Shown here: positions 44,156 to 47,117 of the stretch, piece by piece
How positions within the stretch are numbered: position 1 is the first letter of the stretch
Layout of the letters: every line of letters starts with the position of its first letter
From: Sulfobacillus sp.
Lineage (GTDB): Bacteria > Bacillota > Sulfobacillia > Sulfobacillales > Sulfobacillaceae
Length of the DNA stretch: 64,000 nucleotides
Reading direction: 5' to 3'
Assembly (NCBI GenBank): GCA_027309085.1
Contig: DAIDDL010000010.1
Location: forward strand, 1-64,000
Notes under the pieces: generated by a model
What the model saw: only the letters and a program-made list of their open reading frames with translations
Told to the model about the DNA's origin: nothing
Databases searched by the model: none
Made by a program: the position numbers and the translations under genes

Positions 44156-46162
44156 CTAATCTTCCCCGCTTTCCATACCTGTGATGCTGACCCACGTGCT
44201 GTAAAACGTCGACCCGCCCCCAACATCCGACAAGCTCTGCGAGGTCAGCTGATTGACATTGCGCCCGCCGCCATCACTGTTCCAACGCACGGCGTAACTG
44301 ACTGCCACGCCGGGGCGCGCCCTGGCGCTGACCCAAAGCCGCATTTCCACAAATCCCTCGGGACTCTCCACCCTCACCATGTCCCCTGGCCTCACACCCA
44401 ATCTGTCCGCGTCACCCTGGTGCATGTAAATCGCGGGTTCCGGCTCGCGGCTGAGCAGGCCCGGAATATTCCCAAAACTGGACTTTATAGTGTTTTTCCT
44501 CGCAGGGGTGATAAGTGCCCAAGGATATTCAGCGGGTGCGGGCACCGGGAAATATTCCGGCACCGGCAAAGGGTCCAGACAAAAGGGGCGTTCGCTGCTT
44601 CGGGCCACGTCGAGAAATGGGCGTGCCCGTGAGTCAATGCGCACCTTTTGCACAGGCTCCCGCTGCAGGGTCCCGAGGGTAATGCCCTGCAGCCATGGGT
44701 GATCCGTGTCCAGCGCCTGCCTGACCAGTTCTTCGTCGCTGTCTTCGCACCATGACGCCCCCGAAAACCCGGAGGCTCTCGCCAGGCGGCGGAAGAACTC
44801 AGTGTTGGACACCGCTTCCCCAGGCGGCTCGACGGCTTTCTCACTCAACTGGATATAACGGTGCCAGTAGGACGTGTGGAGGTCAAGGGTTTCGAACGCC
44901 ATCGCAGCCGGAAGAACCCAGTCCGCATAGCAGGCCGTATCCGTCATCATCTGCTCATGGACCACCGTCAGCAGGTCCTCCCGCATCAGCCCGGCCAGGA
45001 CTTGCCCCTGATCCGGCGCGGTGGCCGCAGGATTGCTGTTGTACACCACAAGAGCTCGAACTGGTTGGCTGCCCTCCTGATTCAGGGCATTGCCCAGCTG
45101 CAGCATGTTGATGGTTCTGGGAGAGGACACCAGCAGATCCGGGCGGGTCAACCGGTCCCAGTTGAGGGGGAAGGCGCCGCCGTTGCCTAAAAGATGGCCG
45201 CCGCCGGGATGGCGGTGGGAGCCGGTAAGAACGGACAGAACCGAAATCGCCCACACACTCTCCCCGGAGTGCACCTGCCTCTGCACGCCGTAGCCGGTCC
45301 GCAGCAACAGCGGGGCCCGCCGCGCCATGCCTTGGGCCAGATGCTCAATGGCCCGCCCCGGGATTCCAGTGGCTTCGGCAGTCCGCTCCAGTGTCCACGG
45401 CCAGGCGCGCTGCCGGTAGTGTTCAAATCCCCGGGCATATAGGCGGACAAAGTCGGCATCATACTGCCCTGACTCCACGAGATGCCGGCCGATCCCCAAA
45501 GCCAGCGCCGCGTCGCTGCCCGGGTTGATGGCCAGGTGGCCGCCGTAGCGGTCCGCCGTCTCGGTGCCTAGAGGGTCTATCACCACAATCTCGGCTCCTT
45601 GCCTCACCGCCTTGTCCAACAGCGGCACTTCATGAATATTCGTCACCGCCGGATTGCTTCCCCACAGGATAACCATCCCCGCCTCAGGAATCGTTTCCGG
45701 ATCGGGTCCCAGACCCATTCCGTATACCCATCTCAGGGCATGGTCCGCCGACGCCGTGCAGATCGTGCGGGCGAGCCGGGAGGCGCCTAGGGCATGAAAA
45801 AATCGGCGGTCCATAGAGGCTTCGCTCAACACTCCCATATTGCCGGAAAAACTGTAAGGGAGCACCGCCTCACCACCGTGTGCGCGCAAGATGTCCTGAA
45901 GTTTCCCGCCAATGTCAGCCAGGGCATCTGCCCAGCTGGCTTGCGCGAACTGCCCGGACCCCTTGGGTCCGGTGCGCCTGAGCGGGTGCACAATGCGTCC
46001 CGGATGATTCAGGCGTTCAAGATAGCGGTTGACCTTCAGGCATGCAAAACCCTGGGTAATAGGGTGTCCCTTTTCCCCGGCGATGCGCACAATACGGCCG
46101 TGCTCCTGCTCGACTGTCAGACCGCACGTGTCGTAGCAGTCATGAGGACACACCTGGTGCAT
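44156..46162 (-). CDS. molybdopterin-dependent oxidoreductase (DMSO reductase family)
   Basis: 668 residues from an ATG at 46162 (GAGAGG six bases upstream). The N-terminal 4Fe-4S site is C5-x3-C9-x3-C13-x27-C41 (VCPHDCYDTCGL...GFACLK). The Mo-bis-PGD folds follow: LWGSNPAVTN, VIDPLGTETA, NSNPAAT, EQMMTDTACYADWVLP, and the C-terminal barrel with ITPARKNTIKSSFGN, MHQGDADRLGVRPGD. No Tat signal precedes the cluster, so it looks cytoplasmic. No partner electron-transfer or anchor subunit is adjacent. Related proteins are annotated as anaerobic dehydrogenases or formate-dehydrogenase-like, but the substrate is unknown. Confidence 0.92.
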   Translation of the reverse strand: MHQVCPHDCYDTCGLTVEQEHGRIVRIAGEKGHPITQGFACLKVNRYLERLNHPGRIVHPLRRTGPKGSGQFAQASWADALADIGGKLQDILRAHGGEAVLPYSFSGNMGVLSEASMDRRFFHALGASRLARTICTASADHALRWVYGMGLGPDPETIPEAGMVILWGSNPAVTNIHEVPLLDKAVRQGAEIVVIDPLGTETADRYGGHLAINPGSDAALALGIGRHLVESGQYDADFVRLYARGFEHYRQRAWPWTLERTAEATGIPGRAIEHLAQGMARRAPLLLRTGYGVQRQVHSGESVWAISVLSVLTGSHRHPGGGHLLGNGGAFPLNWDRLTRPDLLVSSPRTINMLQLGNALNQEGSQPVRALVVYNSNPAATAPDQGQVLAGLMREDLLTVVHEQMMTDTACYADWVLPAAMAFETLDLHTSYWHRYIQLSEKAVEPPGEAVSNTEFFRRLARASGFSGASWCEDSDEELVRQALDTDHPWLQGITLGTLQREPVQKVRIDSRARPFLDVARSSERPFCLDPLPVPEYFPVPAPAEYPWALITPARKNTIKSSFGNIPGLLSREPEPAIYMHQGDADRLGVRPGDMVRVESPEGFVEMRLWVSARARPGVAVSYAVRWNSDGGGRNVNQLTSQSLSDVGGGSTFYSTWVSITGMESGED

Positions 46163-46197: not shown

Positions 46198-46728
46198 TCA
46201 CAGCCGCAGCGATGGCGCCCCTGCCGCAGTCACGGTAAAGTGCGCCCACATTCCCGAGGCCTCATGACCGGGAACTAAGCTGACCATGCGAAAGGTCCCG
46301 GGCCTGGCGGCCACAAACTTCAGCGTCCGTGTCTGGCCCTCGGCGATCCCCTCCTGCAGGGGCGGTGTGCCCGCCCCCGGGAAGACCTGCCGGGTGCTGC
46401 GCCCGCTTGACACGACCGCCAGAGAATTGTTCAGACCGCTGGCATTGGTGAAGTCGATCACAACGTTCCAGCCCTCAGGGACACGGACATCCATCGCCCC
46501 GTTAGCCGTCCCGTCGAGATTGAAGCCATGGCTGGCGTACCCCGCAATTACCTTCAAATCCACTGTCCGCGTTTCGGCATCGACATGCATCCAGGCCGCG
46601 CTCGAATGACTCGGGGAGGGCACCACGAGAGCCGGGACATTCTCATGGGGAGGGCCGGCAAACAATCCGCAACCGGATAACGCCACCGCTAGCATGGCCC
46701 CGCTGAATAAAAACACAAATTTTTTCAC
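46198..46728 (-). CDS. sulfocyanin-like lipoprotein lacking two copper ligands
   Basis: 176 residues. A lipoprotein signal (ALSGC, Cys20) is followed by a cupredoxin domain (about 45-170). The pattern AWMHVDAETRTVDLKVIAGY, FNLDGTANGAMDV, VPEGWNVVIDFTN and VPGHEASGMW is that of sulfocyanin, the blue copper protein of acidophile respiratory chains. In sulfocyanins a His follows F.N and a Cys precedes .VPGH. Here those positions are Asn (N100/N101) and Ser150; only His155 and Met160 of the usual four ligands remain. A type 1 copper site is therefore unlikely. GTG start at 46728 with GAGAGGA upstream. Confidence 0.85.
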   Translation of the reverse strand: MKKFVFLFSGAMLAVALSGCGLFAGPPHENVPALVVPSPSHSSAAWMHVDAETRTVDLKVIAGYASHGFNLDGTANGAMDVRVPEGWNVVIDFTNASGLNNSLAVVSSGRSTRQVFPGAGTPPLQEGIAEGQTRTLKFVAARPGTFRMVSLVPGHEASGMWAHFTVTAAGAPSLRL

Positions 46729-46894: not shown

Positions 46895-46900
46895 TTCACA

Positions 46901-47117
46901 AACGGCCAATGAATGGGAAGAGCCGGGCGGCTCTCTAGAAAGTCGGTAGGATGGAACCCGATGTGCTGCCCGAACCCGATTCCACCCAGGAGGACATCAG
47001 CGAAGAGTTGATCGCGGAGCTGCGTTAAAAGCCATAGAGCGGACAGAATCTCATTTCTGTCAAATAGGGTGGCACCGCGGTGACTACCGTCCCTAATAAT
47101 CTAGGGGCGTTTTTTGT
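46901..47117 (+). promoter_or_regulatory. T-box riboswitch leader, probable serine specifier (UCC)
   Basis: The T-box sequence AGGGTGGCACCGCGG is at 47066-47080. It is followed by the terminator CGTCCCTA / TAGGGGCG (47088-47095, 47102-47109) and a T run. The stem before it, GACAGAA / TTTCTGTC (47042-47061), is stem III. Stem I can be drawn with TGGG/CCCA (46914-46917, 46985-46988) and GGGCGGC/GCTGCCC (46925-46931, 46965-46971). The internal loop then shows TCC (46981-46983) followed by A, a serine codon in the specifier place. Uncharged tRNA-Ser would favour the antiterminator and turn on the serine genes. Confidence 0.9.

Follow-up and report, generated by a model that had tools for sequence, protein, structure and literature searches.

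The gene at positions 46198 to 46728 on the minus strand of the window (the whole 64,000-nucleotide stretch of Sulfobacillus sp. DNA analysed here) encodes a lipoprotein with a SoxE domain that has lost the cysteine and the first histidine of a type 1 copper site. Sequence comparisons point to a protein that probably holds no copper, is anchored to the membrane on its extracytoplasmic side, does not shuttle electrons as a sulfocyanin would, and acts through contacts made by the face once used for electron transfer. The initial annotation covered this one protein; SoxE domains without the ligands occur across the genus, and it is one of them. The features of the locus are as follows.

46198..46728, minus strand: SoxE-domain lipoprotein without type 1 copper ligands (clade A), 176 aa (ORF, Pfam SoxE, orthologues, AlphaFold model)
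46669..46728, minus strand: signal peptide with lipobox L-S-G-C and lipidated Cys20 (sequence; G19-C20 invariant in seven orthologues)
46426..46428, minus strand: Asn101 codon, first-His position (alignment to rusticyanin and paralogue; Asn in 7/7)
46279..46281, minus strand: Ser150 codon (AGC), Cys position (alignment to rusticyanin and paralogue; seven-genome codon comparison)
46264..46266, minus strand: His155, second His kept (rusticyanin and orthologue alignments)
46249..46251, minus strand: Met160, axial Met kept (rusticyanin and orthologue alignments)
44156..46162, minus strand: molybdopterin oxidoreductase without Tat signal, 35 nt downstream of the lipoprotein gene (Pfam)

The ORF has a GTG start, an RBS-like GGAGAGG upstream and the lipobox LSGC at residues 17–20. 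Its domain matches Pfam SoxE (PF06525) with 58.5 bits against a cut-off of 21. The NCBIfam sulfocyanin equivalog TIGR03094 scores 46.2 bits against a cut-off of 168.4, which says little, since the ligand-complete SoxE proteins of these bacteria also fall below that cut-off; the rusticyanin equivalog TIGR03095 scores 15.2 bits against 146.7. Alignment to rusticyanin (2cak) and to a ligand-complete SoxE paralogue from the same genome places Asn101, Ser150, His155 and Met160 at the ligand positions, and all seven orthologues have Asn-Ser-His-Met where a type 1 site has His-Cys-His-Met. The initial annotation had read Ser for Cys and Asn for the first His with the later ligands kept, and had suggested looking for a canonical paralogue; the alignments bear out the first, and the paralogue exists. 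Neither the lipoprotein nor its orthologues contain any Cys other than the lipidated Cys20, so a type 1 site cannot be rebuilt from other residues, a possibility that the annotation had raised against itself.

A syntenic orthologue is present in all six of the other well-covered Sulfobacillus genomes (52–68% identity), each with the Asn and Ser; an eighth genome, about 61% complete and left outside the well-covered set, gave no match. Gene order is conserved in 7/7 genomes: serC-serA on the opposite strand, the lipoprotein gene, the molybdopterin oxidoreductase and a formiminotransferase. The Ser codon (AGC or AGT) and the Asn codon (AAT or AAC) recur across the seven genomes with synonymous turnover and unchanged residues, which excludes a base-call error of the AGC-versus-TGC kind that the annotation had named as fatal to its reading. 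His155 and Met160 are likewise invariant in 7/7, as is His41 just N-terminal of the domain, and the Gly preceding His155 is replaced by Glu or Asp in three orthologues. For the orthologue pairs unsaturated at synonymous sites, dN/dS was 0.029 (G003/G002) and 0.10–0.12 (G005/G001/G006 pairs); the other pairs are at or close to saturation. Clade A proteins were absent outside the genus among 299 genomes across the phylum and in one scan of the genome collection. The comparisons indicate that the lipoprotein is real, intact and conserved, hence functional.

Of the 28 sites no more than five residues from a ligand position, 17 are invariant, versus 34 of 103 elsewhere in the domain (Fisher one-sided p = 0.008; seven sequences, with the shell defined by sequence rather than spatial distance). 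This bias is absent from clades B and C (described below) and from the ligand-complete rows. Because invariant sites are concentrated near the former ligands, selection probably acts to preserve the face around the empty copper site; a small-ligand pocket could equally explain such conservation.

An AlphaFold model of the domain, computed from an alignment of 67 family members, reached a pLDDT of 96.2 and a pTM of 0.90; a poor model from the seven orthologues alone (pLDDT 63) was set aside. The model matches rusticyanin with a VIA Z of 13.2 over 114 residues (rusticyanins overall, Z about 13 over 112–115 residues), and further PDB matches are auracyanin, nitrite reductase and CuA domains. The domain is thus predicted to adopt the cupredoxin (Greek key beta) fold. 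The orthologues, the dN/dS values and the model agree with the initial description of an undamaged, likely functional lipoprotein with an intact fold pattern.

Loss of the copper Cys is widespread in the genus. Of the 34 SoxE-domain genes found across the seven well-covered Sulfobacillus genomes (a tally that omits rusticyanin-like matches), 29 lack it, and these fall into three separate clades. Clade A, that of the lipoprotein studied here, has Asn, Ser, His and Met at the ligand positions. Clade B has Asn, Ser, Gln and Met, and its domain forms the C-terminus of a large polytopic membrane protein; in one example (L073:9753-11438, minus strand) a membrane part of approximately 400 residues, without a Pfam family, precedes a SoxE domain that lacks the Cys and both His. 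Other genera encode this membrane family on its own, next to a gene for a ligand-complete cytochrome c-SoxE protein (L168:3911-4831; 39% identity, E 5e-58). A description of clade B as a cytochrome b fusion was rejected, as Pfam found no cytochrome b, and a mapping of Sulth_2749 by its distance to cytochrome b genes was dropped along with it. In clade C the Cys and both His are gone, and the Met nearly always as well. Some of its members come first in a terminal oxidase operon with the order SoxE, Tat-exported protein, COX2, COX1, COX3:

L079:6465-11555: clade C terminal oxidase operon, starting with a ligand-less SoxE lipoprotein
L080:2731-7361: clade C terminal oxidase operon, starting with a ligand-less SoxE lipoprotein

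The second gene of the operon encodes the Tat-exported protein, whose end is C..H..M-like (CFVQQYIHYRTGM) and in which Pfam recognizes nothing apart from the signal; the copper of the operon may sit in this protein. Outside the genus, a small clade D has His, Ser, Asp and Leu at the ligand positions (L088:6731-7207, L093:6975-7382). Ligand-complete domains occur elsewhere in fusions: cytochrome c (CxxCH) is fused to ligand-complete SoxE in several genera (L017, L018, L019, L014, L012), and in another family of the class (L016:1-1994, genome G047) a part that looks cytochrome b6-like by eye is joined to a SoxE domain whose four ligands are all present.

Every SoxE-domain gene found in G005 (S. 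benefaciens AMDSBA1, 5/5) and G006 (4/4) lacks the copper Cys, and searches for SoxE-domain genes found no ligand-complete SoxE in either genome. Three such genes were found in the complete genome of S. thermotolerans Kr1, and two of them lack the Cys.

In a SoxE tree built without the ligand columns, clades A (97/99), B (100/100) and C come out apart, with a ligand-complete clade as the sister group of B (99/95). The minimum number of changes in Cys state on this tree is four. The AU test rejects both a single clade of A and B (p = 0.0098) and a single clade of all ligand-less rows (p = 0.012), on a tree that has several long branches and weak deep forks and whose groups were named after the residues had been seen. 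The paired replacement of His by Asn and Cys by Ser thus likely, although not certainly, arose in parallel in clades A and B.

How might such a domain work? A cupredoxin domain without type 1 copper would not carry out sulfocyanin-like electron transfer. Asn and Ser would occupy the empty site and hold the loop geometry, with Ser able to accept the backbone hydrogen bonds normally made to the Cys sulfur. The preserved face around His155, Met160 and Trp161 could then be where a partner protein docks, on the outer side of the membrane, making the lipoprotein an assembly or docking factor. The ligand-less clade C proteins that head terminal oxidase operons show that, in these bacteria, SoxE domains without the ligands accompany respiratory proteins of the membrane. 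Ligand loss in all orthologues, purifying selection, conservation near the site, presence throughout the genus, the predicted fold and the parallel Asn/Ser pair of clade B are all consistent with a copper-free contact protein, and among the functions first suggested for the lipoprotein a scaffold fits best. Redox sensing, another of those suggestions, finds no support in a mature domain that lacks Cys.

The invariant His155 and Met160 may nonetheless leave room for a weakly held metal. These residues, perhaps with Asn101 and Ser150 or with His41 (itself invariant in 7/7), might bind Cu(I) or type 2-like Cu(II) and let the protein chaperone or buffer metals in acid, metal-rich water. At the acid pH of the habitat, however, a free His should be protonated, and it is possible but unlikely that His and Met alone would hold a metal. 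His155 is also the single strong ligand at the old site, with no other invariant strong ligand inside the domain; an acidic residue precedes it in three orthologues, and no copper gene adjoins the lipoprotein gene. We accordingly regard this metal-binding mode as unlikely, and the replacement metal site of the initial annotation loses ground with it, if less firmly than redox sensing. Quite unlikely, too, is a role as a sensor or binding lipoprotein that takes up a small molecule or a sulfur or iron species in the emptied cavity. That cavity should be lined by Asn, Ser, His and Met, and its surroundings are the most conserved part of the domain, but the copper cavity of cupredoxins is small, and no ligand, transporter or sensor gene is linked at the locus.

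Partnership with the adjoining molybdopterin oxidoreductase is very unlikely. The SoxE gene lies directly upstream of the enzyme gene on the same strand in all seven genomes, no terminator was found on the minus strand in the 35-nt gap, and it is plausible, indeed likely, that the two genes share one transcript. However, the enzyme, having no Tat signal, should be cytoplasmic, whereas the lipoprotein lies outside, and since the genus conserves the whole neighborhood, adjacency counts for little. Of 61 genomes, 34 have a close relative of the enzyme. In those other genera of the family for which the flanking genes were inspected, the enzyme gene often stands beside FTCD and/or SerC/SerA without a SoxE gene immediately upstream; the enzyme is thus no obligate partner, and it is from these SoxE-free contexts that we judged the partnership improbable. 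In three of these genera a cytochrome c-SoxE gene lies about 3–5 kb away on the opposite strand. As for a decaying duplicate or a sequencing or assembly error, loss of metal-binding residues is typical of decay, but the chance of this is negligible: seven independent genomes agree, the frame is intact, dN/dS is 0.03–0.12 and Asn and Ser persist despite codon turnover, so the orthologues refute it.

The copper-free contact protein that we favor has counterparts among known cupredoxins. In quinol oxidase subunit II (CyoA type), the cupredoxin domain no longer carries copper but persists as a structural element of a membrane complex; unlike the SoxE lipoprotein, it is of CuA rather than type 1 ancestry and belongs to a known oxidase. 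The lipoprotein shares with sulfocyanin (SoxE, PF06525/TIGR03094) the SoxE homology, the predicted cupredoxin fold, membrane attachment, the PGH...GMW loop, the second His and the Met, but all its orthologues lack the Cys and first His and it scores far below the TIGR03094 cut-off. Rusticyanin resembles it in fold and in the aligned ligand positions; the protein studied here differs in lacking the Cys and first His and in being a lipoprotein. Copper-less cupredoxins are known in plants, where the early nodulin-like proteins (ENODL) keep the fold, have lost the copper ligands and are still expressed (PMC10048054), although these phytocyanins of the plant cell surface are a separate lineage.

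For Sulfobacillus, sulfocyanin genes have been proposed to encode the electron carrier of iron oxidation (PMC4062416, PMC6315122), and they serve as expression biomarkers in bioleaching (PMC8065656). Three annotated sulfocyanins are reported for S. thermotolerans Kr1 (PMC6803676); we infer that they are the three SoxE genes found there. The strongly regulated Sulth_0453 (PMC6315122) follows COX3, COX1 and COX2, the gene order of the clade C operons, and judging from this position it is probably ligand-less too. The literature searched, which took in few subscription papers, yielded no report of ligand-less sulfocyanins. The lipoprotein, as most likely not an electron carrier, should not count as a sulfocyanin in models of iron oxidation. 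A wider reading, which we offer tentatively, is that the respiratory membrane may have taken up the SoxE fold several times as a component free of copper, in the form of a standalone lipoprotein, a membrane-protein fusion and a terminal-oxidase subunit, with two clades converging on Asn/Ser; the "sulfocyanins" invoked for iron oxidation in several species might then mostly not be electron carriers. If experiments agree, the assignment of annotated sulfocyanin genes to iron oxidation needs revision, and Sulfobacillus offers a natural series for cupredoxin function after metal loss.

With respect to the origin of the locus, the simplest reading is that a SoxE-like gene was inserted between serC and the oxidoreductase gene in the ancestor of the genus. 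Upstream of serC-serA, positions 46900-47097 of the window (plus strand) match the T-box leader (RF00230; 84.8 bits, E 5e-19, just below the gathering score of 93), and a terminator-like hairpin accompanies this leader at 47088-47109. The leader probably reflects amino-acid control of serine synthesis.
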